64,000 nt of DNA, taken from NCBI RefSeq assembly GCF_001429285.1, contig NZ_LMJJ01000023.1, positions 133,041-197,040 of the forward strand, read 5' to 3'. A program made the translations under genes and the position numbers. The DNA is from Ensifer sp. Root278 (GTDB taxonomy: Bacteria; Pseudomonadota; Alphaproteobacteria; Rhizobiales; Rhizobiaceae). The notes beneath the pieces were generated by a model. The model searched no databases. It saw only the letters and a program-made list of their open reading frames with translations, and was not told where the DNA came from. Of the stretch, positions 4,743 through 25,659 are shown one piece after another (the first letter of the stretch is position 1; the number at the start of each line of letters is the position of its first letter).

Positions 4743-5438
4743 TCAAACCGTAAGATGTCGTCGGGCCTCGGCCGTATCCAACGTCTCTGGCGGCCCCTCG
4801 TGCACCACGGCGCCGCGGTCCATGATGTAGACGTGATCGGCGAGTTCCCGGCAGAAATCCAGATATTGCTCGACCAGCAGGATCGCCATTCCGGTCGAAT
4901 CCCGGAGGTAGCGGATCGCCCGGCCGATATCCTTGATGATCGAAGGCTGAATGCCCTCGGTAGGCTCGTCGAGCACCAGGATCTTCGGCCGTGTCACCAG
5001 TGCCCGGCCGATCGCCAGTTGCTGCTGCTGCCCGCCGGAGAGGTCGCCTCCGCGACGCCCGAGCATCGAACGAAGAACCGGAAAGAGATTGAAGACGTCC
5101 TCCGGTATCGAGCGATCGCCCCGCTTCAACGGGGCGTAGCCGGTTTCGAGATTCTCCTTGACCGTCAGCAGCGGAAAAATCTCACGGCCCTGCGGCACGT
5201 AGCCGATGCCTTCCTTGGCACGGCGGTAGGGCGCCATACCCGCGAGTGCTACGCCGTTGAAGCCGATCGCGCCGGCGCTAACCGGATGCTGACCGGTAAC
5301 GGCCCGGAGCAGGCTCGACTTGCCGACGCCGTTGCGGCCGAGCACGCAAGTGATCCTGCCCATCTCGGCGGTGATCGACACGTTGCGCAGCGCCTGCGCG
5401 GCACCGTAGTGAAGATTGACGTTTTCGACGCTCAGCAT
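4743..5438 (-). CDS. urtE: Urea ABC transporter ATP-binding protein UrtE
   Basis: The second ATPase of the urea importer, 231 residues, close to the usual UrtE length. Walker A is GRNGVGKSS, the signature is LSGGQQQQLAIG and Walker B is ILVLDEPTEGI; the 'TEGIQPSIIKDIGRAI' stretch is typical of UrtE against LivF. The start is the ATG at 5438 (MLSVENVNLHYG); the open frame further upstream overlaps urtD and is not coding. It is the last gene of urtABCDE, 35 bp after urtD. It acts at the inner face of the cytoplasmic membrane. No urease genes are within the window. Confidence 0.95.
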   Translation of the reverse strand: MLSVENVNLHYGAAQALRNVSITAEMGRITCVLGRNGVGKSSLLRAVTGQHPVSAGAIGFNGVALAGMAPYRRAKEGIGYVPQGREIFPLLTVKENLETGYAPLKRGDRSIPEDVFNLFPVLRSMLGRRGGDLSGGQQQQLAIGRALVTRPKILVLDEPTEGIQPSIIKDIGRAIRYLRDSTGMAILLVEQYLDFCRELADHVYIMDRGAVVHEGPPETLDTAEARRHLTV

Positions 5439-5473: not shown

Positions 5474-6238
5474 TTACCGGCCGAGATAGTTCTCGATCAC
5501 CTTCGGGTCGCTGCTGACGAAGTCGATCGAGCCTTCCGCCAGCACTGCACCTTCGGCAAGGCAGGTAACCTTGACCCCCAATTCGCGGATGAAGCCCATG
5601 TCGTGCTCGACGACCACCACGGATCGGGTCTTTGCGATCTCCTTGAGCAGAACCGCGGTCTCGGCCGTTTCCGCATCCGTCATCCCGGCGACGGGCTCGT
5701 CGACCAGAAGCAGTTCCGGCTCCTGGGCAAGCAGCATGCCGATCTCCAGCCACTGCTTCTGGCCGTGCGAGAGGTTGGCGGCGAGATCGTCGCGACGCGC
5801 AGAAAGCCGGACGGTCGCAAGGATTTCCTCGATCCGGGCTTTGTCCGCGGCCGTCAGCTGATAGAACAGCGTCGCGAAGACGCCTCGTCTTCGGTTCAAG
5901 GCGAGTTCAATATTGTCCCACACCGTATGGCTTTCGAAGACCGTCGGCTTCTGGAACTTTCGGCCGATGCCGAGCGAGGCGATCTCAGCCTCGTCCTTCT
6001 TCGTCAGGTCGATCCCGCCCTTGAAGAAAACCTGCCCCTCGTCGGGTCGGGTCTTGCCGGTAATGATGTCCATCATCGTCGTCTTGCCGGCCCCGTTTGG
6101 GCCGATGATCGCCCGCAGTTCGCCGGGTTCGATGACGAAGGAGAGCGCGTTGAGCGCCTTGAAGCCGTCGAAGGAGACGGAGACGCCATCGAGATAGAGA
6201 AGGCTGGTCGGTTTGGTCTGGCCGATCGTCTGGTTCAT
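5474..6238 (-). CDS. urtD: Urea ABC transporter ATP-binding protein UrtD
   Basis: A 254-residue ATPase with Walker A GPNGAGKTT, a signature written LSHGQKQWLEIGMLL rather than LSGGQ, and Walker B LLLVDEPVAGM. The LSHGQKQWLEIG variant is typical of UrtD and separates it from LivG. It forms the heterodimeric motor with UrtE under the UrtB/UrtC membrane pair. It begins 5 bp after the urtC stop, so translation is likely coupled. Confidence 0.95.
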   Translation of the reverse strand: MNQTIGQTKPTSLLYLDGVSVSFDGFKALNALSFVIEPGELRAIIGPNGAGKTTMMDIITGKTRPDEGQVFFKGGIDLTKKDEAEIASLGIGRKFQKPTVFESHTVWDNIELALNRRRGVFATLFYQLTAADKARIEEILATVRLSARRDDLAANLSHGQKQWLEIGMLLAQEPELLLVDEPVAGMTDAETAETAVLLKEIAKTRSVVVVEHDMGFIRELGVKVTCLAEGAVLAEGSIDFVSSDPKVIENYLGR

Positions 6239-6243
6239 GTCGC

Positions 6244-7404
6244 CTACTCCGCCGCAATGGGTTCAACAGCAAGATTGTCCGGCGTTTCGCCCGTCTGCGC
6301 CCTACGCTCAGCACGCCGGCGGGCGAAATAGGCGCTGGCCGTTCCGACGACGCCCTTCGGCAGGAACAGGGTGACGAGCACGAAAAGACCGCCGAGGGCG
6401 AAGAGCCAGAATTCAGGAAACGCAGCGGTGAAGATGCTCTTGCCGCCGTTAACGAGGATGGCGCCGACGATTGGGCCGATCAGCGTGCCGCGCCCACCGA
6501 CCGCCGTCCAGATCACCACCTCGATCGAATTGCCCGGTTCGAACTCGCCGGGATTGATGATGCCGACCTGCGGCACATAGAGCGCACCGGCGATGCCGGC
6601 CATCATCGCCGAGACGGTGAAGGCGAAGAGCTTGATGTGCTCCACCCGGTATCCGAGGAAGCGGGTGCGGCTTTCCGCGTCGCGCACGGCGACGAGCACC
6701 TTGCCGTATTTGGAGCGAACGATCGCCGAGGTGAGGATGAGGCAGAGCGCCAGTATCAGCGCCGAGACCGCGAACAGTGTGGCGCGTGTGCCATCCGCCT
6801 GGATGTTGAAGCCGAGGATATCCTTGAAATCGGTCAGCCCATTGTTGCCGCCGAAGCCCATGTCGTTGCGGAAGAAGGCGAGCAGCAGCGCATAGGTCAT
6901 CGCCTGGGTGATGATCGAGAGATAGACGCCGTTGACGCGCGAGCGGAAGGCGAACCAGCCGAAGACGAAGGCGAGCAGGCCCGGAACCAGCACCACCATC
7001 AGCGCGGCGAACCAGAACATGTCGAAGCCGTACCAGAACCAGGGCAGTTCCTTCCAGTTGAGGAACACCATGAAATCCGGCAACAGCGGATTGCCGTAGG
7101 AGCCGCGCGCACCGATCTGGCGCATGAGATACATGCCCATGGCATAGCCGCCGAGCGCGAAAAAGGCGGCATGCCCAAGCGAGAGAATGCCGCAGAAGCC
7201 CCAGACAAGATCGAGCGCCAGCGCCAGCAGCGCATAGGTAAGATACTTGCCGAACAGCGAGACCAGATAGGTCGGCACGTGCAGCGGATGATCGGGCGCG
7301 GTCAGAAGGTTGAGCGCGGGTACGAGGATGGCGAGGCCGAGGAGGATCGCCACGACGACGAGGATGCTGCGGTCCAGCGATTTCATGAGAAACGACGTGA
7401 TCAT
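6244..7404 (-). CDS. urtC: Urea ABC transporter permease UrtC
   Basis: A 386-residue permease of the branched-chain amino acid/urea (LivM-like) type with about ten hydrophobic segments; 'LSLGHAAFFALGGYAMGMYLM' and the 'AVRDAESRTRFLGY' loop (the EAA-like coupling region) are diagnostic. The ATG at 7404 overlaps the urtB stop in an ATGA (7401-7404), so I reject the much longer in-frame extension that lies inside urtB. It pairs with UrtB to form the urea channel. Confidence 0.94.
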   Translation of the reverse strand: MITSFLMKSLDRSILVVVAILLGLAILVPALNLLTAPDHPLHVPTYLVSLFGKYLTYALLALALDLVWGFCGILSLGHAAFFALGGYAMGMYLMRQIGARGSYGNPLLPDFMVFLNWKELPWFWYGFDMFWFAALMVVLVPGLLAFVFGWFAFRSRVNGVYLSIITQAMTYALLLAFFRNDMGFGGNNGLTDFKDILGFNIQADGTRATLFAVSALILALCLILTSAIVRSKYGKVLVAVRDAESRTRFLGYRVEHIKLFAFTVSAMMAGIAGALYVPQVGIINPGEFEPGNSIEVVIWTAVGGRGTLIGPIVGAILVNGGKSIFTAAFPEFWLFALGGLFVLVTLFLPKGVVGTASAYFARRRAERRAQTGETPDNLAVEPIAAE

Positions 7405-9017
7405 GCTTCGACCGCCCTTCCCTTGAGTGCGAAGAGCCCGCGCGGTTTCTTCTGGATGAACAGGATGATCAACACGAGCACGAGGATCTTGCCGAGCACG
7501 GCGCCGGCATAGGGTTCGAGGAACTTGTTGAGGATGCCGAGCGAGAAGGCGCCGACGAGCGTGCCCCAGAGATTGCCGACGCCGCCGAAGACGACGACCA
7601 TGAAGCTGTCGATGATGTAACCCTGGCCGAGATTGGGCGAGACGTTGTCGATCTGCGAGAGCGCGACGCCGGCCATGCCGGCGATGCCGGAGCCGAGCGC
7701 AAAGGTCAGCGCATCGACCCAGGGCGTGCGGATGCCCATGGAGGAAGCCATGCGGCGGTTCTGGGTCACGGCCCGCATCCGCAGGCCCATCGATGTCCGT
7801 TTCAACAGGAAGAGCAGAGCGGCAAAGACGGCCAGCGCAAAGACGATGATCCACAGCCGGTTCCAGGTGATCGTCAGCCCGCCGAGATCGAAGGCGCCGG
7901 ACATCCAGGAGGGATTGCCGACCTCACGGTTGGTCGGCCCGAAGATCGAGCGCACCGACTGCTGCAGGATCAGCGACAAGCCCCAAGTGGCAAGCAGGGT
8001 TTCCAGCGGGCGGCCATAGAGGAAACGAATGACGCCGCGTTCGATTGCAAAGCCGACGGCCCCGGTGACGAGAAAGGCAAGCGGCAAGGCGATCGCCAGC
8101 GACCAGTCAAAAAGCGCGGGATAGGAATTGCGCACGACCTCCTGCACCATGAAGGTCGTGTAGGCGCCAAGCATGACCATCTCGCCATGGGCCATGTTGA
8201 TGATGCCCATGACGCCGAAGGTGATGGCAAGCCCGATCGCCGCCAGCAGCAGAACGGAGCCGAGCGACAGGCCGTACCAGACATTCTGGCCGGCGCTCCA
8301 AAGCGCCTGGGTCTGTTCGATGCGGGCGATCGCCGCCTCGATATCGGGTTTGAGGGAAGCATCGGCAGTGGCCAGCGCGGATGTCAGAACGGCAAGCCCG
8401 TTGCGCCCATTGCCCTCGGCAAGGAGTGTTATCGCCTGGCGCTTTTCATCGTCGCCTCGCTCCGACAGGAGGAGCGTCACGGCTCTCGCCTCGTCGAGAA
8501 CCCTGCGAACTGTTGCATCCTTTTCGGCCGCAATCGCGGTCTCGATCGCCTCGAGCGCATCGGCATTCGGCGTCTGCAGCATCGACTGCGCCGCCTTCAG
8601 TCGGGCGCCGGCGTCATCGCTGAAAAGGGTCAGGCCGCCGAGCGCACTGCGCACGGCGCGGCGCACCGCATTGTTCACCTTGACCTTCTGCATCGCCGCC
8701 TTTGGCGCTTGCCCAGCTTCCGTTCCCGTCACGGGATCGACGAGCAGCAGGTCCGCGCCTTGCGCCTTGACGAGGAAGACCTTGCCATCGGATTTGCGCT
8801 GATAGAGCTCTCCCTCGCCCAGTGCCTCCAAAACGGGAATGACCTTGGCGTCACCGGTCTTGGCGAGCGCCGAGATCCGCTCGTCCATTTCCGAAAGTTT
8901 CGCGGCGCCGAGCTGGTCGACCAGCGCGCCAAGGTCGTCCGCCGCACGCAGACCGACCACGTGGGTCGATATCAACAGGCACAGCGCAACAAACAGGATC
9001 TGCAGAATTCGGTACAT
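7401..9017 (-). CDS. urtB: Urea ABC transporter permease UrtB with N-terminal exported extension
   Basis: A 538-residue protein, longer than a plain LivH-type permease (about 290). Residues 1-25 look like a signal peptide (ILFVALCLLISTHVVGLRAADD), followed by about 220 residues of helical, HEAT-like character. The permease core starts near NVWYGLSLGSVLLLAAIG and includes 'GIINMAHGEMVMLGAYTTFMVQ'. This extension is usual for proteobacterial UrtB. The start is set at 9017 because GAGAGGGTA precedes it; the frame is open to 9080. It is separated from urtA by strong RNA hairpins. Confidence 0.93.
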   Translation of the reverse strand: MYRILQILFVALCLLISTHVVGLRAADDLGALVDQLGAAKLSEMDERISALAKTGDAKVIPVLEALGEGELYQRKSDGKVFLVKAQGADLLLVDPVTGTEAGQAPKAAMQKVKVNNAVRRAVRSALGGLTLFSDDAGARLKAAQSMLQTPNADALEAIETAIAAEKDATVRRVLDEARAVTLLLSERGDDEKRQAITLLAEGNGRNGLAVLTSALATADASLKPDIEAAIARIEQTQALWSAGQNVWYGLSLGSVLLLAAIGLAITFGVMGIINMAHGEMVMLGAYTTFMVQEVVRNSYPALFDWSLAIALPLAFLVTGAVGFAIERGVIRFLYGRPLETLLATWGLSLILQQSVRSIFGPTNREVGNPSWMSGAFDLGGLTITWNRLWIIVFALAVFAALLFLLKRTSMGLRMRAVTQNRRMASSMGIRTPWVDALTFALGSGIAGMAGVALSQIDNVSPNLGQGYIIDSFMVVVFGGVGNLWGTLVGAFSLGILNKFLEPYAGAVLGKILVLVLIILFIQKKPRGLFALKGRAVEA

Positions 9018-9086
9018 TACCCTCTCGCTCGGGTCTTGCCGTGTCGCGTGGGCGACGGGCGTTTCGGTCGAGGATTTCACGTTAAG

Positions 9087-9196: not shown

Positions 9197-10489
9197 TCAG
9201 GAGCCTTTGCCGCCGCATTTGCCGGTGGCGACGTTGAAGTTGCCGCACGACATCGGCGCGCGCCAATCGGAGATCAGGTCCTTCGAGTCGGGCAGATAGT
9301 CGGACCATTCGTCGCCGACGACGAGCCCGGGGGTTTCCCAGACGGTCTCGAACTGGCCGTCGCCCTGGATCTCGCCGATCAGCACCGGCTTGGTAATGTG
9401 GTGGTTCGGCATCATCGTCGAATAGCCGCCCGAGAGGTTCGGCACGGAGACGCCGATCATCGCGTCGAGAACGGCGTCGGTATCGGTGGTGCCTGCCTTC
9501 TCCACTGCCTTCAGCCACATGTTGAAGCCGATGTAATGCGCTTCCATCGGGTCGTTGGTCACGCGCTTGTCGTTCTTGGTATAGGCCTTCCAGGTTTTGA
9601 TGAACTCGGCATTGGCGGGTGTGTCGACCGACTGGAAATAGTTCCAGGCGGCGAGATGCCCCACGAGCGGAGTGGTATCGAGGCCGGCGAGTTCCTCTTC
9701 GCCAACCGAGAAGGCGACGACCGGGATATCCTCGGCCTTGACGCCCTGGTTCGCCAGTTCCTTGTAGAAGGGTACGTTGGCATCGCCGTTGATGGTTGAG
9801 ACGACGGCGGTCTTCTTGCCGGCCGAACCGAACTTCTTGATGTCGGAAACGATCGTCTGCCAGTCGGAGTGACCGAAGGGCGTGTAGTTGATCATGATAT
9901 CCTCGGGCTTCACGCCCTTGGAGATGAGATAGGCCTCGAGGATCTTGTTGGTCGTGCGCGGATAGACATAGTCGGTGCCGGCGAGCACCCAGCGCTCGAC
10001 GCTTTCGTTCGCCATCAGGTAGTCGACGGCCGGGATCGCCTGCTGGTTCGGAGCGGCACCGGTATAGAAGACGTTGCGCTGGCTTTCCTCGCCCTCGTAC
10101 TGGACCGGATAGAAGAGGATCGAATTGAGCTCCTCAAACACCGGCAGGACCGACTTGCGCGACACCGAGGTCCAGCAGCCAAAGACCGCCGAAACCTTGT
10201 CGACCGAGACCAGTTCGCGCGCCTTTTCGGCAAAGAGCGGCCAGTCGGACGCCGGGTCGACGACGACGGCTTCTAGTTTTTTGCCGAGCAGGCCGCCCTT
10301 CTTGTTCTGCTCGTCGATCAGCATCAGCATGGCATCTTTCAACGTCGTCTCGGAGATCGCCATGGTGCCGGAGAGCGAATGCAGGATGCCGACCTTGATC
10401 GTGTCATCGGCGGCGAAGGCGCCGTTGAACGCCGTCGTCGACAGGACGGCAGCTAGGAATGCGCCGGTGACGCTTGCCTTGATATTCAT
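9197..10489 (-). CDS. urtA: Urea ABC transporter substrate-binding protein UrtA
   Basis: A 430-residue periplasmic binding protein. The signal peptide is MNIKASVTGAFLAAVL..., with cleavage likely after AFA. The UrtA family is identified by 'VGILHSLSGTMAISE', 'VDPASDWPLFAEKARELV', 'VFGCWTSVSRKSVLPVFE' and 'LFYPVQYEGEESQRNVFY'. The ATG at 10489 has GAGAGGGG at good spacing, so the frame upstream to 10585 is not used. First gene of the urt operon. I looked for an RpoN -24/-12 element upstream, since urea transport is often Ntr-controlled, and found none. Confidence 0.96.
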   Translation of the reverse strand: MNIKASVTGAFLAAVLSTTAFNGAFAADDTIKVGILHSLSGTMAISETTLKDAMLMLIDEQNKKGGLLGKKLEAVVVDPASDWPLFAEKARELVSVDKVSAVFGCWTSVSRKSVLPVFEELNSILFYPVQYEGEESQRNVFYTGAAPNQQAIPAVDYLMANESVERWVLAGTDYVYPRTTNKILEAYLISKGVKPEDIMINYTPFGHSDWQTIVSDIKKFGSAGKKTAVVSTINGDANVPFYKELANQGVKAEDIPVVAFSVGEEELAGLDTTPLVGHLAAWNYFQSVDTPANAEFIKTWKAYTKNDKRVTNDPMEAHYIGFNMWLKAVEKAGTTDTDAVLDAMIGVSVPNLSGGYSTMMPNHHITKPVLIGEIQGDGQFETVWETPGLVVGDEWSDYLPDSKDLISDWRAPMSCGNFNVATGKCGGKGS

Positions 10490-10841
10490 CTGATGGAACC
10501 CCTCTCGTTCTGGAGCAACTGGGCTTTCGGTGCTTTTTAGCCGTTGCTTGAGGGGATCATCGGACAGCCACACTGCACTGCACATACGTCATTCTACGTA
10601 GGCGCCGGGGGCAAAGAGGAACGGCCGACGACGGGAAGGCCGAAGCTCACGCGCAATCGTCCCCGTCCATGCTTGACCTTGCCACCGTTGGAAGCTCTAG
10701 AAACGGACAGGCCAACGGCATCGGACCGAGCGATCGCGTCACGGAATCGACGTGAATCGACTGTCAGCAAAGGCTGGCAACGACAGCAACGGTCGAACTT
10801 GCGCGGGGGGCAGGGTGTTTCAAATCTCGGGGCCGACAGGC
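10490..10841. other. Divergent intergenic region urtA / adenylate cyclase
   Basis: A 352-bp region that should carry the promoters of both divergent genes. The only symmetry I noted is TACGT-N6-ACGTA at 10585-10600. No -24/-12 element, riboswitch or small gene is recognisable. Confidence 0.4.
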
Positions 10842-15209: not shown

Positions 15210-15223
15210 GAAAACGTGTTCAC
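15210..15223. promoter_or_regulatory. Candidate LacI-family operator O1
   Basis: TGAAAACGTGTTCA, a 14-bp near-palindrome with the central CG typical of LacI-family operators. It lies 17 bp upstream of the start of the divergent LacI gene (autoregulation). A second copy differing at one base is at 15316-15329. Confidence 0.65.
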
Positions 15224-15315
15224 TCACAAAAGAGGACAACTCGCCGATTTCGTCAAGTGGAATAGAAATTCTCCCGACAATCGCAGAAAGAACTCCTGGT
15301 CCGTGTTGACAAAGA

Positions 15316-15329
15316 TGAAAGCGTGTTCA
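15316..15329. promoter_or_regulatory. Candidate LacI-family operator O2 in the importer promoter
   Basis: TGAAAGCGTGTTCA differs from O1 at one base. It lies just after a -35-like TTGACA at 15306-15311, where a bound repressor would block RNA polymerase. The two sites begin 106 bp apart, about ten helical turns, so looping between them is possible. Confidence 0.65.
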
Positions 15330-15425
15330 TTCTTGATCGTCGTCGGGACAGCGGACCTGGAGGAGGACCGGACTGTCGCAGCCAGACACATGGGTCCTTG
15401 AGAGGATCGACCGGGAGGAGAAAAC

Positions 15426-16787
15426 ATGCGTACCAGGTTTCATTCCCTATTGCTCAGCGCAGCCGCGGCCATCGCCTTTGCCGCGCCGGTGAGCGCCACC
15501 GAACTCAACATCACCTGCCGCTGCATCATCGGCGGCGTAAACAGCGGCATGGCCGAGTGGATCGAAAAGAAGGTCATTCCGGCCTTTACCGAGAAGATGA
15601 AGGCCGAAGGCAAGGACGTCACCGTCAAGCTCACCCAGTTCGGCGGCGAGGACGAGCAGCTGACGCAGCAGCTCGCGCTCGATTTCTCCACCGGCGCCGG
15701 CCCTGATGTCTCCGGCTTCGACGGTTTCCTGATCCCGAGCTTCGTCCAGGGCAATCTCCTGAAGTCGCTCGAGGAAGTGGCCGGCCCAGACGTTCCGAAG
15801 TGGGAGGGCTGGCGGCATATCTCCGACGGCACCAAGGCGCTGATGAGCTACCAGGGCAAGCCCTATGGCATCGCGCTCGGCACCGACGCCCGCATGATCT
15901 TCGTGCGCAAGGACCTGTTCAAATCGGCCGGCCTCGATGCCGACAGCTGGCAGCCGAAGTCGTGGGAAGAGCTGCTCGACGCCGCCCGCAAGATCAAGGC
16001 GGCCGCCCCCGACAGCTTCCCGTTGCAGCTCAACGCCGGTGTCTCCATGGGCGAGGCGACCACCATGCAGGGCTACTGGATGGCGCTGCTCGGCACCGGC
16101 GAACAGGTCACCGACGACAGCGGCAAATATATCGTGTCGAGCCAGGGCATCCTCGACACGCTGAAGCTCTACAAGACCATCTATGTCGACGACAAGCTCG
16201 GCGACCAGCGCGCGCAGCTGCTTGCCGACGGCCGCAACCGCACCTTCGCCAATTTCCGCGATGGCAAGACTGCGATGCTCGTCGAGGGCGACTGGTTCTA
16301 TCGCTCGGTCACAGCACCCGGCGCCGAATTCGCCGTCGCCGATCGCGACAACACCATGACCTGGAAGAAGATGCCCGCCGCAGCACCCGGAAAGGGCTTA
16401 CGCGGCCAGGATTTCGTCACGATGTCCGGCGGCACCGGCTTCGTCATCAATCCGCATACGGACGCGCCTGTCGAATCCTGGGCGCTGCTTTCCTTCATGA
16501 ACAGCAAGGAGCAGCTCGACGCGTTCCAGGAAATCCAGCCGGCCATCCGTATCCGCGACGACGTGGCGATCCCGAACTCGCCGTTCCTGACGGAAACGGC
16601 AACGACGCTGCTGCCGATCACCACGGCCCGTCCGAACGACGCCAATTACAACAAGGTCTCGACCGAGATCCAGCGCATGACCGAAAGCGTCGTTTCCGGC
16701 GAGCTCTCGCCCGAGGACGCGATGGCCCAGTACAAGGCGGCCGTCATCGCCATCGTCGGCGAAGAAAACACCGTCAGCACGCTCTAA
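15426..16787 (+). CDS. Sugar-type ABC transporter substrate-binding protein
   Basis: A 453-residue family 1 (MalE/UgpB-like) binding protein. The signal peptide MRTRFHSLLLSAAAAIAFAAPVSA ends in an A-x-A site. 'LDFSTGAGPDVSGFDGFLIPSF' and 'FRDGKTAMLVEGDWFY' are typical of the family. It has four Cys or fewer and is a periplasmic receptor for the permease pair and ATPase that follow. GGGAGGAGAAAAC precedes the start. The substrate is unknown; a saccharide acted on by the GH38-like or PHP enzymes of this locus is the natural guess. Confidence 0.92.
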   Translation: MRTRFHSLLLSAAAAIAFAAPVSATELNITCRCIIGGVNSGMAEWIEKKVIPAFTEKMKAEGKDVTVKLTQFGGEDEQLTQQLALDFSTGAGPDVSGFDGFLIPSFVQGNLLKSLEEVAGPDVPKWEGWRHISDGTKALMSYQGKPYGIALGTDARMIFVRKDLFKSAGLDADSWQPKSWEELLDAARKIKAAAPDSFPLQLNAGVSMGEATTMQGYWMALLGTGEQVTDDSGKYIVSSQGILDTLKLYKTIYVDDKLGDQRAQLLADGRNRTFANFRDGKTAMLVEGDWFYRSVTAPGAEFAVADRDNTMTWKKMPAAAPGKGLRGQDFVTMSGGTGFVINPHTDAPVESWALLSFMNSKEQLDAFQEIQPAIRIRDDVAIPNSPFLTETATTLLPITTARPNDANYNKVSTEIQRMTESVVSGELSPEDAMAQYKAAVIAIVGEENTVSTL

Positions 16788-16794
16788 AGCCAAT

Positions 16795-16828
16795 GCGGGA
16801 TGTGGCCGCAACGGGGCCCTCATCCCGC
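16795..16828 (+). terminator. Intercistronic hairpin after the binding-protein gene
   Basis: GCGGGATG (16795-16802) pairs perfectly with CATCCCGC (16821-16828), with further GGCC pairing inside. There is no T-run. It lies directly after the stop of the binding-protein gene and before the permease gene, as in the urt and ribose-type operons of this window. Confidence 0.65.
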
Positions 16829-16903
16829 TTCGATCCAACGACAGAGCGCCCGGCTGCCATCCGTGGCCGGGCTCCCGATCCAGGATATGGGCATGAAACG
16901 CGC

Positions 16904-17812
16904 ATGAAGAAATTCTCCCTGCTTTCGACGCGCGCCGGCGCGCTTTTCCTGGCACCGGCCACGGCCCTCGTCGGGGTCTTCGTCATCGTTCCCTTCTTCT
17001 GGGTGATCTTCGTTTCCTTCACCAACCGCACACTGCTCGGCCGCACGGCCGTCGACCCCGATTTCGTCGGCCTGCAGAACTATTTCGCGCTCTTCAATCC
17101 GGCGACCTTCTTTACCCGCGGCCAGTTCGGGTTTTCGCTGATCCTGACGATCCAGTTCGTGCTGCTCTCGGCGCTGATCGGCCAGGCGCTGCTCGGGCTG
17201 CTGCTCGCCTGGCTCAGCCAGACGGTCACGCCGACGCTCAAATCCTTCCTGCAGACCGCGGTCATCGCCGCCTGGATCTTGCCGGAGGTGGTGATCGGCT
17301 TTGCCTGGTTCGCGTTCCTCGATTACGACAACGGCACGCTCAACATGATCCTGCGCGGCCTCGGTCTGCCGCCGGGCGACTGGCTGCTGCAACAACCGTT
17401 CTGGGTGATCGTGTTCTTCAACACCTGGCGGGGCGCCGCCTTCTCGATGATGCTGTTTAATTCGGCCTTCCAGTCGATCCCGCCGAGTTATTTCCAGGCA
17501 GCCGATGTCGCAGGCGCCACCTCGTGGCAGAAGCTGCGCGACATTGCGCTGCCGCTGATCCGCGGCCATGTCGTCACCGATCTGATCCTCATCACCATGT
17601 GGACCTTTAACGTCTTCACGCCGTTCCTGCTCACCCATGGCGGGCCGTCCTATCGCACCGAGATCCTGTCGATCTACACCTACCGCATCGCGTTCAAGGA
17701 TTTCGAGTTCGGCAAGGGCGCTGCCGTCGGCGTGGTCATCATGCTGATCAATCTCGCCTTCGCGCTCGTCTATCTTCGCCTTGCCCACAAGAAGCCGGTG
17801 GAGGCGGAATGA
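16904..17812 (+). CDS. Sugar-type ABC transporter permease (MalF-like)
   Basis: A 302-residue inner-membrane subunit with six predicted helices and the EAA coupling loop 'YFQAADVAGATSWQKLRDIALPLI'. The ATG at 16904 (MKKFSLLSTR) is chosen; an open frame reaches far upstream but it runs out of frame through the binding-protein gene. Overlaps the next permease by an ATGA. Confidence 0.92.
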   Translation: MKKFSLLSTRAGALFLAPATALVGVFVIVPFFWVIFVSFTNRTLLGRTAVDPDFVGLQNYFALFNPATFFTRGQFGFSLILTIQFVLLSALIGQALLGLLLAWLSQTVTPTLKSFLQTAVIAAWILPEVVIGFAWFAFLDYDNGTLNMILRGLGLPPGDWLLQQPFWVIVFFNTWRGAAFSMMLFNSAFQSIPPSYFQAADVAGATSWQKLRDIALPLIRGHVVTDLILITMWTFNVFTPFLLTHGGPSYRTEILSIYTYRIAFKDFEFGKGAAVGVVIMLINLAFALVYLRLAHKKPVEAE

Positions 17813-18642
17813 TGCAGAAGACTCAGAACATCTTCGTGCGGCGCGCGATCTTTGCGGCCGCTGCCACCTTCCTCGGCACGGTCTTTGCGCTGCCGCTCGT
17901 CTGGTTCGTCTTTGCGCCGTTCAATGCCCGTGCCGAACTTGGCCTTGCCATACCGTCGCCCTTCACGCTTTCGAACTTCGCCACCGTCTTCCAGAACACC
18001 TTCGCGATGCAGGCGCTGCTGAACAGCCTCATCCAGGCGGCGGGCGGCGTGGTTCTGGTTGGTGGGGCGGCAACGCTTGCCGCCTACGCACTGTCGCGCT
18101 CGCCGATCCCCGGCAAGGGCGCCGTCACCTATATCCTGCTGCTCTTCTCGTCGGTCGTTTCAGGCTCGGCGGCGATGGTGCCGATTTTCCTCATCATCTC
18201 GGCGGCAGGCCTGATCGATACCCATCTTGCCGTCATTCTCGTCTTTGCCGGCGGGCTGTTGCCGACGGCGATGTTCATTCTTCGCGATTTCATCGACGCC
18301 ATCCCGCGCTCCTATGAGGAGAGCGCCATGGTCGCCGGCGCCTCGCCGCTGCAGGCGTTCTTCGATGTGGCGCTGCCGGTCATCCGGCCGGGCATCGTCG
18401 TGGTTGTCGTCTGGGCCTTCGTCAACATCTGGGGCAGCTTCCTCATCCCCTTCATCCTGTTGCGCAGCGACAAGCTGATGCCGGCATCCGTCGCGATCTA
18501 CTCCTTCTATTCGGAGGCCGGCACACCAATCGTCACGCTGCTGGCTGCCTATTCGCTGATCTATTCGCTGCCCGTCATCGCCCTCTATCTCTTCGTGAAT
18601 TGGAAATTCGGTTTCCGGTTCTTCGGTGGCATCAAGTCGTAA
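17809..18642 (+). CDS. Sugar-type ABC transporter permease (MalG-like)
   Basis: A 277-residue second permease subunit with about six helices and the EAA loop 'YEESAMVAGASPLQAFFDVALPVI'. The start ATG at 17809 overlaps the upstream stop; a second ATG follows directly at 17812. It pairs with the 302-residue permease. Confidence 0.92.
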   Translation: MMQKTQNIFVRRAIFAAAATFLGTVFALPLVWFVFAPFNARAELGLAIPSPFTLSNFATVFQNTFAMQALLNSLIQAAGGVVLVGGAATLAAYALSRSPIPGKGAVTYILLLFSSVVSGSAAMVPIFLIISAAGLIDTHLAVILVFAGGLLPTAMFILRDFIDAIPRSYEESAMVAGASPLQAFFDVALPVIRPGIVVVVVWAFVNIWGSFLIPFILLRSDKLMPASVAIYSFYSEAGTPIVTLLAAYSLIYSLPVIALYLFVNWKFGFRFFGGIKS

Positions 18643-18655
18643 TCGGAAATCTGTC

Positions 18656-19759
18656 ATGGCCTCTGTCGAATTCCAGAACATCTCCAAGACCTTCGGCGCC
18701 TTCGTCGCCGTGCCCGACATCAGCTTCCAGATCGCCGACGGCGAGTTCATCTGCCTGCTCGGCCCGTCGGGCTGCGGCAAGACGACGAGCTTGCGCATGA
18801 TCGCGGGTCTCGAAACGCCAAGCTCCGGCCGGGTGATGATCGGCGGCAGGGACGTCACCTATCTGCATCCGAAGGACCGCGGCATTTCCATGGTCTTCCA
18901 GGACTATGCGCTCTATCCGCACATGAACATCGCCGACAACATCGCCTATCCGCTGAAGGTGCGCGGCGAGGCCGAAACCAAGCGTCATGCCCGGGCAAAG
19001 GATGTGGCCGACGTGCTCAAGATCGGCGACCTTCTGAAGCGGTTGCCGAGCCAGATTTCCGGCGGCCAGCAGCAGCGCACGTCGCTCGCCCGCGCACTGG
19101 TCTATCCGAGCGAAGTCTATCTCTTCGACGAACCGCTCTCGAACCTCGACGCGAAGCTCCGGCTCGAAGCCCGCGGCTTCCTCAACCATCTGCAGCGCGA
19201 CATGGGCATGACTGCCGTTTACGTCACCCACGACCAGGCGGAAGCGATGGCGCTCGCGACCCGCATCGCCGTCATGGACAAGGGACGGATCGTGCAATTC
19301 GCCCCGCCGATCGAGATTTATCGCCGGCCGGCGACCACTTTCGTCGCCAATTTCGTCGGCAACCCGCCGATGAACCTGGTTCCGGTCGAGGCGTCCGTAG
19401 GCGACGGCGCGCTGCATCTGCGCGCCGACGGACTTCAGGTTGCGCCGATCGAACTCACCGACGCCGTCGCCAAGGCGGCGAGATCAGGCAAGATGACGCT
19501 TGGCGTGCGCCCGGAGCACCTACGCATCGCCGGCGCCACCGACCACAACATTCTTTCCGGCGAGCTCTTCGCCAACGAGAACATGGGGCCGGAAAGCCTC
19601 GTTACGCTCGAGCGCGGCGACAACGGCCGCGTCACGGCGCGCATTTTCACCGATGACGAAATCAAGGTCGGAACCTCCGTGCACCTCGCCTTTGACGCCA
19701 GGCACGTCACCCTCTTTGACGACACCGGCGCGCGCATTCCCGCAGCCGACGAGCGCTGA
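18656..19759 (+). CDS. ABC transporter ATP-binding protein (UgpC/MalK-like)
   Basis: A 367-residue ATPase with Walker A GPSGCGKTT, the signature ISGGQQQRTSLARAL, Walker B VYLFDEPLSNLDAKL, the His-switch VTHDQAEAM and a C-terminal TOBE/OB-fold region that begins near residue 235, as in MalK/UgpC. The start is the ATG at 18656 (MASVEFQNIS), 14 bp after the permease stop; the frame upstream overlaps that gene. It powers the importer encoded just upstream. Confidence 0.94.
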   Translation: MASVEFQNISKTFGAFVAVPDISFQIADGEFICLLGPSGCGKTTSLRMIAGLETPSSGRVMIGGRDVTYLHPKDRGISMVFQDYALYPHMNIADNIAYPLKVRGEAETKRHARAKDVADVLKIGDLLKRLPSQISGGQQQRTSLARALVYPSEVYLFDEPLSNLDAKLRLEARGFLNHLQRDMGMTAVYVTHDQAEAMALATRIAVMDKGRIVQFAPPIEIYRRPATTFVANFVGNPPMNLVPVEASVGDGALHLRADGLQVAPIELTDAVAKAARSGKMTLGVRPEHLRIAGATDHNILSGELFANENMGPESLVTLERGDNGRVTARIFTDDEIKVGTSVHLAFDARHVTLFDDTGARIPAADER

Positions 19760-19766
19760 GGCCGCT

Positions 19767-21170
19767 ATGTTGGAATTTTCCGCGAGGATCACCCGCAGGG
19801 ATCAGGCGGCCGATCCCTATTTCTACGTCCCCTTCGATGTACCTGAGGGCGTGACGCGGATCGACGTGACGCTGAGCTATCCGAAGTCGGAGCAGTGCAT
19901 CATCGATCTCGGCGTGCTTGACCCGCGCGCAACCGACTATCCGACCGATCAGGGATTTCGCGGCTGGAGCGGCGGCGCGCGCGACCACTTTTTCGTCGCC
20001 ACCGACGACGCCACCCCCGGCTACATCCATGGCGAGATACCCTCCGGGCGGTGGAAGGTCATGTTGGGTCTCTATAAAGTCCCCGAAGGCGGCGTCGACG
20101 TGCTGGTGATCGTAGACCATGACAGCAGCCGGCGTGCGATCGCGCCGCAGCCGTCGCGACAGTTTCCGGTCCGCAAGGGGGCCGGCTGGTATCGCGGCGA
20201 CCTTCATTGCCACACGTTCCATTCGGATGCGGCCGGTTCCCCGGAACTGCTGCACGCCGCCGCGCGACAGGCAGGGCTCGACTTCCTGGCGGTCGCCGAC
20301 CACAACACCATAACCCAGCGGCGCTACTTCCATCCGCATTCCTCCGCCGACCTCGTCTTCATCCGCGCCATGGAAATCACCACCGCCGTCGGCCACGCCA
20401 ATGTCTTCGGCGTCGACGACTGGATCGATTTCCGCATGACCAGGCCCGAGCATGCCCATACGCTCGAACGTCTCGTGCATGAGCGCGGCGGACTGCTGTC
20501 GATCAACCACGACAAGCCGACCATCCCCTGGGATTACGACCTGCCCAAGATCGACTGCATGGAGGTCTGGCAATCCCATTGGCTTGCCTGGAACTGGGTA
20601 TCGCTGGAGCGCTACCAGCAGCGGCTGGCCTCCGGCCTGAAGATCTCTGCCATCGGCGGTAGCGACTTCCATCAGCCGGCGCGACTGATGCCGGAGGGGC
20701 CTCTGGTGCTCGCACGCCCGACGACGGTGCTCTTTCTCGCAGAGCTTTCGGAAGAGGCCGTGCTCGGCGCAATGAAATCCGGCCACGGCTATGTCACCGA
20801 AGGCCCAACGGGACCGCATCTGGAACTCACCGCCAACGGCCAGCCCATGGGATCGACCGTCACCGGGCAAGTTGCGGCAGAGGCTTTGGTTCGCGGCGCC
20901 AAGGGCGACAAACTCCTGTGGCTCGATGCCTCCGGCATCGTCGGGGAGCAGATGATCGAGGCAGACGACTGGACGGGCCACTATATGGGTTCGCCGTCGA
21001 TTTTCCTGCGAGCCGAGATCGTCGCGTTCGCGAGCCGAGACGCCATCGTCGCTGCTTTCCGCGAGGCGCTGCCCGGAAATAGCCTGCCGTGGCAACTCTC
21101 CAATGACGATCTCGCGCAGCGCACGGTTCGCCGCGCCATCAGCAATCCGGTTTATTGCATCCCCGCCTGA
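19767..21170 (+). CDS. CehA/McbA-family PHP-domain metallohydrolase
   Basis: A 467-residue protein. Residues 1-130 resemble a beta-sandwich accessory domain; from about 140 a PHP (polymerase and histidinol phosphatase) domain begins with GDLHCHTFHSD (His147, His149), then LAVADHNT (Asp178-His179), SINHDKPTIPWDY and IGGSDFH, which together supply the metal ligands. Relatives are annotated as CehA/McbA carbaryl hydrolases, and PHP proteins in general are phosphoesterases. The gene starts 7 bp after the ATPase stop and so belongs to the importer operon. No signal peptide is seen, so it should act on the imported compound in the cytoplasm. Whether it cleaves a phosphate, carbamate or other ester is open. 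Confidence 0.88.
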   Translation: MLEFSARITRRDQAADPYFYVPFDVPEGVTRIDVTLSYPKSEQCIIDLGVLDPRATDYPTDQGFRGWSGGARDHFFVATDDATPGYIHGEIPSGRWKVMLGLYKVPEGGVDVLVIVDHDSSRRAIAPQPSRQFPVRKGAGWYRGDLHCHTFHSDAAGSPELLHAAARQAGLDFLAVADHNTITQRRYFHPHSSADLVFIRAMEITTAVGHANVFGVDDWIDFRMTRPEHAHTLERLVHERGGLLSINHDKPTIPWDYDLPKIDCMEVWQSHWLAWNWVSLERYQQRLASGLKISAIGGSDFHQPARLMPEGPLVLARPTTVLFLAELSEEAVLGAMKSGHGYVTEGPTGPHLELTANGQPMGSTVTGQVAAEALVRGAKGDKLLWLDASGIVGEQMIEADDWTGHYMGSPSIFLRAEIVAFASRDAIVAAFREALPGNSLPWQLSNDDLAQRTVRRAISNPVYCIPA

Positions 21171-21356: not shown

Positions 21357-24300
21357 ATGGCGGCACGCCAGCGCATTATCCCCGTTCGGCGTGAATACAA
21401 TCGCTGGGTCGCCAACCAGACGCTGGAAGACTATGCGCTGCGCTTCACCGCCAAGAGCGCGCGACGCTTTTCCTCCGAACGCATTTCCCAGACGGCGATT
21501 GGCGCGATCTCCTTTCTGGCGCTGGAAGCGATCGGCGGCGCGATCACCATGTCCTATGGCACCACCAACGCAATCGTCGCGATCCTGGTCGCGAGCCTGA
21601 TGATCCTGACGGTTGGGCTGCCGATCAGCCGTTATGCCATCCGCCACGGCGTCGACATCGATCTTCTGACCCGCGGCGCCAGCTTCGGCTATATCGGCTC
21701 GACGCTGACCTCGCTGATCTATGCGAGCTTCACCTTCATCCTCTTTGCGATCGAGGCCTCTATCATGTCGGGAGCGCTCGAACTCGCACTCGGCATCCCC
21801 TTGTGGATCGGCTACATCGTCAGTGCCGTCATGGTCATCCCACTCGTCACCCACGGCGTGCGGCTGATCAGCAAGTTCCAGCTCGTGACCCAGCCCTTCT
21901 GGATCGTTCTCAATATCCTGCCCTTCGCGTTCATCGCCTTTGCCGATTGGGAAAAAGTCGGCGCCTGGCTTGCCTATTCCGGCATTCATCACGCATCAGG
22001 GCCGCCCGGTACGATCGCCCCTTTCGATCTCGTCGAATTCGGGGCGGCATCGGCCGTGATCTTCGCGCTGATGGCGCAGATCGGCGAGCAGGTCGACTTC
22101 CTGCGTTTTCTGCCGCCGGACGGCCAGCGCAAGCTGCATCACCGCATCGCCATCTTTCTTGCCGGCTCCGGCTGGGTGCTCGTCGGCGCGCCGAAACTGC
22201 TCGCCGGCTCCTTCCTCGTGGTTCTGGCGCTTTCTGCCGGCGTGCCCTCGACCAGGGCGGCCGATCCGGCGCAGATGTACTACACCGCCTTCGGCTACAT
22301 GATCCCGTCGGAAACGGCAGCCCTCCTGCTGATGGTCGCCTTCGTCGTCGTCTCGCAGCTGAAGATCAACGTGATGAACGCCTATGCCGGGTCGCTCGCC
22401 TGGTCGAACTTCTTTTCGCGGCTGACGCACAGCCATCCGGGCCGCGTCGTCTGGCTCATCTTCAACGTCGCGATCGCGCTTCTTCTGATGGAACTCGGCA
22501 TCTATCGGCTGCTCGAGGAAACGCTCGGCGTCTTTTCGATCATCGCCATGGCCTGGCTCTGCACGATTTCGGCCGACCTCTTCATCAACAAGCCGCTTGG
22601 CCTATCGCCGCCCGGTATCGAATTCAAGCGCGCGCATCTCTACGACATCAACCCGGTCGGCCTCGGCGCCATGGCGATTTCGGCGACGGTGGCGCTGACG
22701 GCGCATTTCGGCGTATTCGGCGACATCGCCGCTTCGCTCGCACCCTATATCGCACTCGTTGTGGCTTTCATCGCCTCGCCGTTGATTGCCTGGGGTACCG
22801 ACGGCAAGTTCTACCTCGCCCGCAAGCCACGCCGGAGCTGGGCCAGCAAGACCGAGATCACCTGCTCGATCTGCGAACATCCGTTCGAACCGGAGGACAT
22901 GGCCTGGTGCCCGGCCTATGCGGCGCCGATCTGCTCGCTCTGCTGCTCGCTCGACAGCCGCTGCCACGACATGTGCAAGCCGAAGGCGCGTTTCAACGCC
23001 CAGGTCGCGACCGTCGCCAACACGCTGCTGCCCAGCGCGATCACCGAAAAGCTGGCGACCCGTCTCGGCCGCTACGCGATCTCCGCCGTTTTGTCGATCG
23101 CCGGCATCGGCCTGATTTTGGCTATGATCGCCCACCAGACGGCCGGATCATCCCCAGAGGTCGCCGCGGTGGTCGAGCGTACCGTCGCCGTCGTCTTCTT
23201 TGTCTTCGCCGTGCTCGCGGGCATCGTCTCCTGGTTCTATGTGCTCGCCCATGACAGCCGCGTGGTGGCCGAAGAAGAATCCTCCCGCCAGAACACGCTG
23301 CTGCTCAAAGAAATCGCCGCCCACAAGAAGACGGACGCCGCCCTGCAGCAGGCAAAAGAAACTGCGGAAGCCGCCAATCGCGCCAAGAGCCGCTATGTCG
23401 TCGGCCTCAGCCATGAGCTCAGAACGCCGCTCAACGCCGTGCTCGGCTACGCCCAGGTGCTGGAGCGCGACGAGACCATTCCGCCGGCGCGACAGGGCGC
23501 GATCAAGGTCATCAAGCGCAGCGCCGACCATCTCTCCGGCCTGATAGACGGGCTGCTGGATATCTCCAAGATCGAGGCCGGCAAGCTGCAGGTTTATTCC
23601 AACGAGATCAACATTTTCGATTTCCTCGACCAGATCGTCGAAATGTTCCGGCCGCAGGCGCAGGCAAAAGGCATCGCCTTTGAGCACGAGCGCGCCGCCA
23701 GCCTGCCGCGTTATGTGAAAACCGACGAGAAGCGCCTGCGCCAGATCCTCGTCAACCTTCTCTCCAACGCACTGAAATTCACGGAGCGCGGCGGCATCCG
23801 CCTGGATGTCGCCTATCGAAGCCAGGTGGCGACCTTCACCGTTATCGATAGCGGTCGTGGCATTGCTGACAAGGACCTGCCGCGCATCTTCGACCCTTTC
23901 CAGCGCGGCGAGGCCGAGCATCAAGGCAGCATGCCAGGCCTCGGGCTGGGCCTGACGATCACCCGGCTTTTGACGCAGACGCTCGGCGGCGAAATCGCCG
24001 TCACGAGCACGCTTGGCAAAGGCACCACCTTCCGCGTCCGGCTGATGCTTTCGGCCGTCGACCGTCCGGCGCTCGCGGCACCCGTCCGGCGCGTCACTTC
24101 CTATCTCGGCTCGCGGCGCACGATCGTCGTCGTCGACGACAATGCCGATCATCGCACGTTGATGCGCGAGATCCTGGTGCCCATGGATTTCACGGTCTTC
24201 GCCATCCCATCCGGGGCCGATTGCCTGTCCCTCCTTGCGGACGTCAGCCCTGACCTCTTCCTGATCGACATCTCGATGCCGGGCATGAACGGCTGGGAAC

Positions 24301-24743
24301 TCGCCGCCAGGCTGCGTGAAGCAGGACAAACGGCGCCGATCATCATGCTGTCGGCCAATATCGGCGACGGCTCGACCACCGGCGCCTTCACCGGCCACAA
24401 CGACACGCTCGCCAAACCCTTCGTCGTCGGCCAACTCGTCGACAAACTTGCGGTGCATCTTGACCTCACCTGGATCCACGAAGACGAGGAACAGCCGCCG
24501 CATGCCGCGCCACCGGTCCGATCGATGACGCGTCCGGATCTTCATCATGTGCAGGAACTGATCCGCCTCGGCGAGATCGGTTACATCAGGGGCATCGAGG
24601 CCAAATTGACGGAGATCGCGCTCGCACCCGAACACCAATCCTTCGTCGAGGAGGCGCGGACCTATGTGCAGGCCTTCGATCTTTCCGGCTACGACGCCTT
24701 CCTCAGGAACAACACCCAAGAAGGAGGCGAGGCCCGTGGCTGA
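21357..24743 (+). CDS. NCS1-transporter / cysteine-cluster / hybrid histidine kinase fusion
   Basis: A 1128-residue fusion. Residues 1-490 are a near-complete NCS1 (purine/cytosine permease, CodB-like) module with 10-12 hydrophobic segments. Residues 503-540 hold eight cysteines (C503, C506, C518, C526, C529, C530, C536, C540), a probable metal or Fe-S site. Two more hydrophobic segments follow (about 570-595 and 608-632), then a short coiled coil (635-680). The kinase has the H-box SHELRTPLNAV with His686, an N-box NLLSNALKF, G1 DSGRGIAD and G2 GLGLGLTI. A receiver domain runs from about 920 to 1035 with phospho-acceptor Asp971. The 3' end overlaps the next gene by 8 bp. It likely senses a nucleobase, hydantoin or similar ligand while binding or transporting it; the ligand is inference. 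Confidence 0.93.
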   Translation: MAARQRIIPVRREYNRWVANQTLEDYALRFTAKSARRFSSERISQTAIGAISFLALEAIGGAITMSYGTTNAIVAILVASLMILTVGLPISRYAIRHGVDIDLLTRGASFGYIGSTLTSLIYASFTFILFAIEASIMSGALELALGIPLWIGYIVSAVMVIPLVTHGVRLISKFQLVTQPFWIVLNILPFAFIAFADWEKVGAWLAYSGIHHASGPPGTIAPFDLVEFGAASAVIFALMAQIGEQVDFLRFLPPDGQRKLHHRIAIFLAGSGWVLVGAPKLLAGSFLVVLALSAGVPSTRAADPAQMYYTAFGYMIPSETAALLLMVAFVVVSQLKINVMNAYAGSLAWSNFFSRLTHSHPGRVVWLIFNVAIALLLMELGIYRLLEETLGVFSIIAMAWLCTISADLFINKPLGLSPPGIEFKRAHLYDINPVGLGAMAISATVALTAHFGVFGDIAASLAPYIALVVAFIASPLIAWGTDGKFYLARKPRRSWASKTEITCSICEHPFEPEDMAWCPAYAAPICSLCCSLDSRCHDMCKPKARFNAQVATVANTLLPSAITEKLATRLGRYAISAVLSIAGIGLILAMIAHQTAGSSPEVAAVVERTVAVVFFVFAVLAGIVSWFYVLAHDSRVVAEEESSRQNTLLLKEIAAHKKTDAALQQAKETAEAANRAKSRYVVGLSHELRTPLNAVLGYAQVLERDETIPPARQGAIKVIKRSADHLSGLIDGLLDISKIEAGKLQVYSNEINIFDFLDQIVEMFRPQAQAKGIAFEHERAASLPRYVKTDEKRLRQILVNLLSNALKFTERGGIRLDVAYRSQVATFTVIDSGRGIADKDLPRIFDPFQRGEAEHQGSMPGLGLGLTITRLLTQTLGGEIAVTSTLGKGTTFRVRLMLSAVDRPALAAPVRRVTSYLGSRRTIVVVDDNADHRTLMREILVPMDFTVFAIPSGADCLSLLADVSPDLFLIDISMPGMNGWELAARLREAGQTAPIIMLSANIGDGSTTGAFTGHNDTLAKPFVVGQLVDKLAVHLDLTWIHEDEEQPPHAAPPVRSMTRPDLHHVQELIRLGEIGYIRGIEAKLTEIALAPEHQSFVEEARTYVQAFDLSGYDAFLRNNTQEGGEARG

Positions 24744-25659
24744 GACCTATGACCGCCGCGACATCGTTCTGCTCGTCGATGATTCGCCGGAAGCTCTCGG
24801 CTTCCTGACCGAAGCGCTGGAGCAATCGGGCTTCTCCGCGCTGATCGCAACGTCGGGCAACGCCGCGCTTTCGATCGCGGAGCGCATTACTCCCGACGTC
24901 ATTCTGCTTGACGCGGTCATGCCGGGCATGGACGGGTTCGAAACCTGCCGGCGCCTCAAGGCCAACGCCGCCGTCGGCCAGACGCCGGTACTGTTCATGA
25001 CCGGATTGACCGAGACCGAGCATGTTGTCCGCGCCCTTGAAGCCGGCGGCGTCGACTATCTGACGAAGCCTATCAACATCGACGAGCTCCGGGCACGCAT
25101 CCGCGTCCATCTCTCCAACGCGCGCTCCGCCCAGAGCGCCCGCGTCGCGCTCGATGCGGCCGGGCGCCATCTCCTGGCTGTGCGCGCAGATGGCAGCATC
25201 TGCTGGTCGACGCCGCAGGCAACCCGCCTCGTCAATGCCGCAACCGGCCGTGACGATGGACTGAGCACGGTCACGAAACGCATAGCGCGCTGGATGGATA
25301 ACCGCACCCGCGGGCCGTCATCGCCCGAAGAGAGCTTCACGCTCGACCAACCCGGCCAAGCGGGCCTGCAGATATCCTATCTCGGCGGCATCGGCCCGAA
25401 TGAATATCTCTTCCGCCTGACGGCCGAGAACCGGCTGACGGACGACGAAATGCTGCGCCAGCACTTCGCGCTGACGCAGCGGGAATCCGAGGTGCTTCTG
25501 TGGATCGCCAAGGGCAAGGCGAACCGCGACATCGGCGAGATCCTGGGCCTGAGCGCGCGTACGGTGACCAAGCATCTGGAACAGATCTATGTGAAGCTCG
25601 GCGTCGAGAACCGGGCATCGGCCGCCGTCAAGGCAACGCAGGTTCTGCACGGGATCTGA
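24736..25659 (+). CDS. Response regulator with receiver and LuxR-type HTH
   Basis: A 307-residue response regulator. The start is a GTG at 24736 inside the 3' end of the kinase gene, with AAGGAGG at 24721-24727. The receiver domain (about 8-125) has the acidic pair VDDS and phospho-acceptor in VILLDAVMPGMDG, and the K in LTKPI. A middle segment (about 130-230) has no family I recognise. The LuxR HTH at the C-terminus begins LTQRESEVLLWIAKGKANRD. The 8-bp overlap with the transporter-kinase makes it that kinase's cognate partner. Target genes are not evident; no catabolic operon is directly attached. Confidence 0.92.
   Translation: MAETYDRRDIVLLVDDSPEALGFLTEALEQSGFSALIATSGNAALSIAERITPDVILLDAVMPGMDGFETCRRLKANAAVGQTPVLFMTGLTETEHVVRALEAGGVDYLTKPINIDELRARIRVHLSNARSAQSARVALDAAGRHLLAVRADGSICWSTPQATRLVNAATGRDDGLSTVTKRIARWMDNRTRGPSSPEESFTLDQPGQAGLQISYLGGIGPNEYLFRLTAENRLTDDEMLRQHFALTQRESEVLLWIAKGKANRDIGEILGLSARTVTKHLEQIYVKLGVENRASAAVKATQVLHGI

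Follow-up and report, generated by a model that had tools for sequence, protein, structure and literature searches.

A putative receptor for urea or short-chain amides built from an NCS1-type permease domain and a hybrid histidine kinase in Ensifer sp. Root278

Several histidine kinases carry a transporter-derived part. In the available portions of the reports on them, CbrA, CrbS/MxtR, RpuS, and PrlS have a secondary transporter domain of the SLC5 type, most with a STAC domain, fused to a (hybrid) histidine kinase, and LuxR-type regulators are the partners of CrbS and PrlS (PMC9100948, PMC5715377, PMC7918813, PMC13022988). Ks-Amt5, the anammox ammonium sensor kinase, has an Amt transporter domain recruited as a sensor of a small nitrogen compound, ammonium (PMC5764959, available portion), and a transporter fold also serves the S-component and 5TMR sensor kinases, although it is a different fold from NCS1 (PMC11109136, available portion). 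Here, we describe a kinase of Ensifer sp. Root278, encoded in a 64,000-nucleotide stretch (contig NZ_LMJJ01000023.1, positions 133,041 to 197,040; hereafter the window), which resembles these systems and likewise pairs with a LuxR-type regulator. Unlike the SLC5-type kinases, its transporter domain is of the NCS1 type, a cysteine module and a helix pair stand where CbrA and CrbS have STAC and PAS domains, and its neighbors are urea and amide genes rather than genes for histidine, acetate, or pyruvate; we do not imply that the fusions share an origin. No NCS1-kinase fusion appears in the titles or abstract openings of the literature searched, which includes few subscription journals. From comparative sequence analysis, we consider it likely that this protein is a receptor of transporter origin, sensing urea or short-chain amides and activating the urea uptake genes urtABCDE through its LuxR-type partner. 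The kinase, its parts, and its partner are as follows.

21357..24743, plus strand: fusion of NCS1 permease, eight-cysteine module, helix pair, and hybrid histidine kinase (1128 amino acids, 0 internal stops)
21411..22829, plus strand: NCS1-type permease domain, residues 19-491 (hhalign against five NCS1 permeases, E 5.4e-28)
22863..22976, plus strand: eight-cysteine module, residues 503-540 (spacing exact in 151/151 sensors; weak model)
23061..23246, plus strand: extra helix pair, about residues 569-630, running into the signaling helix (model of residues 485-680)
23385..23582, plus strand: HisKA, residues 677-742, phospho-acceptor H686 (Pfam, alignment)
23721..24050, plus strand: HATPase_c, residues 789-898 (Pfam)
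24123..24449, plus strand: Response_reg receiver, residues 923-1031, with D971 and K1020 (Pfam, alignment)
24736..25659, plus strand: LuxR-type response regulator with REC and GerE domains, 307 amino acids (Pfam, orthologue start, ribosome site)

An initial annotation of the window proposed a near-full-length NCS1 permease in one polypeptide with kinase and receiver domains, and both parts of this description hold. The permease part is invisible to Pfam: residues 1-498 match no relevant model, and SSF (PF00474) in particular is not matched, even at E up to 10. Among 63 relatives, a single one reaches PF02133 at E 0.1, and searches of PDB sequences, whether with profiles A1 and A2 or with the single NCS1 permeases L216 and L208, returned nothing credible. 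A profile of 56 sensors nevertheless aligns with a profile of five NCS1 permeases over residues 19-491 at 99.8% and E 5.4e-28; four of the five exceed the PF02133 cut-off, and L167, the remaining one, shares 80% identity with a member of these four. Comparison with one of the five alone (L215, from the Ensifer sp. Root278 genome) gives a weaker match (90.9%, E 1.1e-6, 174 columns); L215 itself matches Mhp1 at E 7e-23, and the unfused sister permease L086 passes PF02133 with 37.7 bits (cut-off, 23.5). These comparisons indicate an NCS1 kinship that is distant but firm, and they support the idea of a receptor built on this family.

The sensors share with Mhp1 and the bacterial NCS1 permeases several core polar positions. 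Across an alignment of 63 sequences (A2; 56 sensors and 7 unfused sisters), Q121, N314, and N318 of Mhp1 align with E133, N338, and N341, which are identical in 63/63, in a mapping that is moderately certain within transmembrane helix 8, where it rests on a MAFFT merge. We take Q121 and N318 to be among the substrate-site residues of Mhp1, Trp117 to be its stacking residue, and Ser312 a sodium-site residue. Unlike Mhp1, the sensor branch has no Trp117 equivalent (Leu or Phe is at that position), an invariant Lys336 at the Ser312 position, and a fused kinase. Loss of the substrate-site residues, which the initial annotation regarded as fatal to a sensor model, is thus not what is seen; the polar core residues aligned with the Mhp1 site are kept.

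The signaling half has all the features of a hybrid histidine kinase, namely the HisKA histidine, HATPase_c, and the receiver aspartate and lysine, each domain being recognized by Pfam within the one open reading frame, and H686, D971, and K1020 are the same in the window protein and in 67/67 divergent hybrid sensors. Behind the receiver, no histidine is conserved at ≥70% in residues 1035-1128 of the divergent hybrid sensor alignment, and no Pfam model for an HPt domain matches anywhere in the 1128-residue protein. Because the tail has no conserved histidine, a relay and a phosphotransfer straight from the kinase to the regulator, modulated by the receiver, are equally likely. The regulator start is GTG 24736, which follows a good ribosome site and is where the alignment with the orthologue begins, and the kinase stop TGA is at 24741-24743, so the 8-bp overlap reported initially is correct and the view of the two genes as a signaling unit is borne out. 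The regulator gene lies directly 3' of the kinase in 64/70 divergent loci and in 81/81 Rhizobiaceae loci. Two loci with formamidase genes encode non-hybrid forms of about 880 amino acids (L161, 7502-10156, minus strand; L162, 7666-10305, minus strand), which retain the permease, the cysteines, and the helix pair together with HisKA and HATPase_c but have no receiver; the N-terminal part thus behaves as one sensory unit.

Between the permease and the kinase, cysteines 503, 506, 518, 526, 529, 530, 536, and 540 form the pattern CxxC-x11-C-x7-CxxCC-x5-C-x3-C within 38 residues, exactly as first noted. This spacing is exact in 151/151 homologous kinases, including 70/70 divergent ones, and occurs in 0/2000 shuffled proteins, so that cysteines lost or differently spaced in homologues, the other finding that the initial annotation regarded as fatal to its model, are not what is seen; the count omits a contig-end fragment without that region (L165) and the distant unfused permease L167. 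An AlphaFold model of residues 485-680 (predicted local distance difference test [pLDDT] score of 69.7 overall and 54-67 in the cysteine part), which we use only as a hint, has a knuckle, a hairpin, and a second knuckle at a helix, and the region has a weak Pfam match to Prok-RING_1 (E 0.63). The order knuckle, hairpin, knuckle at helix is that of treble-clef zinc folds, and the module most likely holds structural zinc, probably at two sites. The same model has helices at 569-595 and 600-656; the extra pair is probably two transmembrane helices, placed by eye from the sequence rather than by a transmembrane predictor.

The genomic context of the sensors points to urea and short-chain amides. 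Of 71 divergent sensor loci, 53 have three or more urt genes, 44 have formamidase or amidase genes, and 11 have urease genes (nine by at least two genes, two by one gene); any of these neighbors occurs in 64/71. The 80 Rhizobiaceae loci, examined mostly with 6-kb flanks, include 42 with at least three urt genes and 73 with at least one, and amidase or urease genes in 0. The start of urtA lies divergently within 1.5 kb of the kinase in 49/70 divergent loci, and when all long open reading frames of 70 loci are clustered, the response regulator, Urt, and FmdA clusters rank highest; five unlabeled clusters among the 24 commonest are UreF, an ATP-binding cassette (ABC) ATPase, and three without a Pfam match. 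In a tree of the N-terminal part made by a quick method, nine urease-linked sensors fall into two groups of seven and two. We note that three loci of one genus (L177-L179), in which no urt, amidase, or urease genes were found, carry the palindrome described below some 110-155 bp ahead of the kinase itself. In L177, the upstream gene encodes an AAA/APH-domain protein with no clear connection to amides.

The closest unfused relatives found, 38-48% identical to the sensors and with a homologous tail, lie in similar surroundings. They are urease- or formamidase-linked "cytosine/allantoin permeases" from Klebsiella, Acinetobacter, Moraxella, and Actinomycetota, which, unlike the sensors, have no kinase. 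Eight such loci were examined, all from plasmid records, and urea or amide genes adjoin seven of them: three are in urease operons (L086, L087, and L213), two are beside fmdA (L211 and L212), one is beside an aliphatic amidase gene (L210), and one, from Methylovirgula (L089, 19685-21331), is an eight-cysteine permease behind a kinase-regulator pair of the same family in a formamidase-amidase locus. The tails of the sisters vary, with all eight cysteines in the Methylovirgula permease, five in Streptomyces, four plus histidines in Klebsiella, Acinetobacter, and Moraxella, and one or two in Arthrobacter and Tsukamurella. On this distribution, the cysteine module belongs to the tail of the permease branch and is retained in every fusion counted. 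A more distant NCS1 permease (L208, 5950-11014) is accompanied by a nitrilase-type hydrolase, a substrate-binding protein, and an ANTAR protein, an arrangement reminiscent of AmiC/AmiR amide control.

A DNA site upstream of urtA co-occurs with the sensors. The palindrome TACGT-N6-ACGTA is present in 31/63 non-redundant urtA-kinase intergenic regions, compared with 3 for the commonest dyad in five shuffled sets; in the k-mer counts of these regions every word is counted on both strands, a count of 60 standing for 30. Its core, TACG-N8-CGTA, precedes urtA in 110/129 sensor-linked cases (67/85 non-redundant) and in 0/40 sensor-less genomes, six of them Rhizobiaceae, with sensor-less defined as having no sensor match at E 1e-20 in the class and phylum samples; a control pattern is found in 2/85 of the sensor-linked set. 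The center of the fuller consensus lies mostly 94-107 bp before the aligned urtA start, in others at 159-249 bp, and once at 441 bp. Among other urtA genes in 20 chosen sensor genomes, the core is present in 8/8 with a urease-linked sensor, about 40 to 245 kb from the sensor gene in four and within about 12 kb in four, and in 0/12 with urt- or amide-linked sensors only; the eight are not independent events, since six belong to one family. Methylovirgula has the site ahead of both fmdA (at 95 bp) and the aliphatic amidase gene (at 141 bp). The window has one TACGT-N6-ACGTA, ahead of urtA, when one mismatch is allowed (0.20 expected; at least one in 17/100 shuffles); the core TACG-N8-CGTA is likewise found there once (10585-10600), and the exact form occurs once in the 7.1-Mb genome, at the urtA site. 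Because the backward control pattern occurs twice in that genome, the rarity of the palindrome is no proof, and its place is the point. The site and the genes behind it in the window are as follows.

10585..10600, no strand assigned: palindrome TACGTCATTCTACGTA, predicted operator of the regulator, center about 104 bp before the urtA start
9197..10489, minus strand: urtA, binding protein of the urea ABC transporter, start set by the orthologue (TIGR03407, 570 bits; cut-off, 492.75)
7401..9080, minus strand: urtB, permease (TIGR03409, 438 bits; cut-off, 250.3; the model covers residues 265-555 only)
6244..7404, minus strand: urtC (TIGR03408, 452 bits; cut-off, 296.2)
5474..6238, minus strand: urtD (TIGR03411, 383 bits; cut-off, 304.1)
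4743..5438, minus strand: urtE (TIGR03410, 335 bits; cut-off, 285.8)

The five subunits of UrtABCDE (4743-10489, minus strand), which the initial annotation did not mention, all exceed their NCBIfam cut-offs; about 260 N-terminal residues of UrtB lie outside the urea permease model. In the window, an insert of other genes separates urtABCDE from the kinase-regulator pair, which is followed by dctA-dctB-dctD-thiC. The same order is present on pSymB of Sinorhizobium meliloti, where the insert is different and shorter; that of the window (12207-21170) codes for a DUF5054 protein, a LacI-type regulator, a sugar ABC transporter, and a CehA/McbA-type metallohydrolase, and other genes are found in S. 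meliloti.

We propose that the NCS1 domain binds a small amide in the old permease substrate site and that the resulting conformational change would pass through the eight-cysteine module, probably with two structural zinc sites, to the helix pair and on to the signaling helix, altering autophosphorylation at H686. Phosphate would then reach the LuxR-type regulator, with receiver D971 acting as a relay or a brake, and the phosphorylated regulator would bind TACG-N8-CGTA about 100 bp before urtA and activate urtABCDE; in relatives it may also activate fmdA and amidase genes. Urea is the likely ligand in Ensifer sp. Root278, since its genome codes for urease (72% identity), a search for FmdA, made with no positive control, gave 0 matches, and an aliphatic amidase is found only at 29-30% identity. 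In loci where fmdA or amidase genes follow, the ligand may instead be formamide or acetamide. The nucleobases, hydantoin, and ureides suggested initially (uracil, hydantoin, allantoin, and xanthine) are not supported by the gene neighbors, the DNA site, or the unfused sisters, all of which point to urea and short-chain amides.

A sensor of nucleobases, hydantoins, or ureides could still be linked to urt and urease genes, as ureides are degraded to urea and the two might be co-controlled. The NCS1 homology itself and the polar residues kept at Mhp1 Q121 and N318 (E133 and N341) would suit such a ligand, but the stacking position of Trp117 is Leu or Phe, the unfused sisters sit with urease, formamidase, and amidase genes, and purine or ureide metabolism is recognized in 0 of the 24 commonest open reading frame clusters around 70 sensors, a count made with no dedicated purine-gene search; we regard this as improbable. 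A somewhat unlikely but more plausible alternative is that the sensor domain is a working urea or amide carrier and that the kinase reads flux or the movement of a coupling ion rather than occupancy. Many polar core residues are identical throughout the 63 aligned sensors and sisters, and CbrA transports histidine (PMC7918813, available portion). Against this, sensors depart from sisters at 22 near-invariant positions, among them E57 (56/56 sensors; Phe in 6/7 sisters) and F53 (Tyr in 7/7 sisters), and Ks-Amt5 binds without translocating (PMC5764959, available portion); the NCS1 domain of the proposed receptor may or may not still transport.

The invariance of the cysteines in 151/151 sensors raises the prospect that they are the primary sensor, of redox state, through an Fe-S cluster, or of a metal such as urease nickel, with the NCS1 part anchoring or tuning it. 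We find this unlikely, as unfused permeases carry eight, five, four, or one to two of the cysteines, which assigns the module to the permease branch and fits structural zinc better than a redox or Fe-S sensor, and the weak model resembles a treble-clef-type zinc fold. That the module is a second sensor (of zinc, nickel, or redox state) in a widespread family of NCS1 transceptors, alongside the permease domain, is similarly a long shot; if true, urea or amide uptake would start only when the substrate is present and the metal or redox state is suitable, which would suit the metal-dependent urease. Finally, the palindrome could be the site of another regulator, with the kinase-regulator pair merely traveling with the urt genes, a reading to which its absence before 18/85 non-redundant sensor-linked urtA genes and near urtA in one urease-linked genome lends something. 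Its presence in 0/40 sensor-less urtA upstream regions, and the way in which its presence at a second urtA follows the sensor type (8/8 versus 0/12, with six of the eight from one family), make this very unlikely.

Several observations weigh against a urea or amide receptor acting on urtABCDE through this site. Seven of the 71 divergent loci are without such neighbors, two of them at contig ends (L165 and L191) and one with urtA and urtB only (L175), the others being L177-L179 and L183, and the Streptomyces sister (L209) is the one of eight with no urea or amide gene nearby. The core site is missing in the 18 cases just given, and outside Rhizobiaceae it precedes 29/47 non-redundant sensor-linked urtA genes. 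The consensus was derived from the sensor-linked regions, the sensor-less set being independent of it, and the sensor-linked set shares one gene (L246, there L150) with the 20 other urtA genes. In the ninth urease-linked genome (G618), the 750 bp next to urtA lack a site; the only one in 12 kb lies roughly 1.3 kb ahead of fmdA, behind which urtABCDE and urease genes follow. A scan of the urease operon of Ensifer sp. Root278 gave no palindrome, and the FmdA search in that genome lacked a positive control. An AlphaFold model of residues 1-680 from 45 close relatives reached a pLDDT of 44.8 and is not used. Outside this organism, urea and formamide or acetamide are inseparable as ligands. The ninth genome and the pattern controls in the window and genome count slightly against the palindrome as sole evidence, and our assessment is left unchanged because the sensor-less control (0/40) is unaffected.

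The sensor is present in one copy in its own genome and, at E 1e-20 or better, in 20/289 sampled genomes of the class and 52/398 of the phylum, its own included in both. Residues 1-648 match 536 records of the plasmid collection, 342 of them from Klebsiella, most of these rows in the spread listing being about 46% identical over the whole query. One kinase locus and one unfused permease (L088 and L086) from Klebsiella plasmid records were examined at the locus level. The former (12001-16264, on an IncF plasmid) has a 46%-identical sensor-regulator pair divergent from urtABCDE-amiF, with TACGTCATTTAACGTA between them. On an Enterobacter roggenkampii plasmid (NZ_CP056738.1; H95), the match to the sensor is split in two, and an IS5-like element is annotated beneath it. 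In S. meliloti, the orthologue is SMb20609, as the PhaR site printed in PMC12542648 equals pSymB 1622073-1622093, 95 bp before the kinase start; the available portion of that report lists SMb20609 as a putative two-component sensor kinase among functionally uncharacterized genes and has PhaR binding its promoter. In the available text of PMC2912261, SMb20602-20605 fall in a tolC mutant along with genes for nitrate and ammonium uptake and are called branched-chain amino acid transport genes; by gene order they are probably the urt genes. The S. meliloti pair Sma0113/0114 was considered as a related system and dropped, being in our understanding an HWE kinase with PAS domains.

If this reading is correct, NCS1 joins the few transporter families known as kinase sensors, and an unnamed family present in 52 of 398 sampled phylum genomes gains a proposed ligand class, target operon, and DNA site. 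The sensors and their unfused sisters with a homologous tail would allow a direct comparison of how a carrier becomes a receptor. The proposal also predicts a dedicated regulator for urea transport encoded by Klebsiella plasmids, where the urt-amiF cluster is described without one and the words "sensor" and "histidine kinase" occur in neither report within the text available (PMC5506382, PMC13060141).

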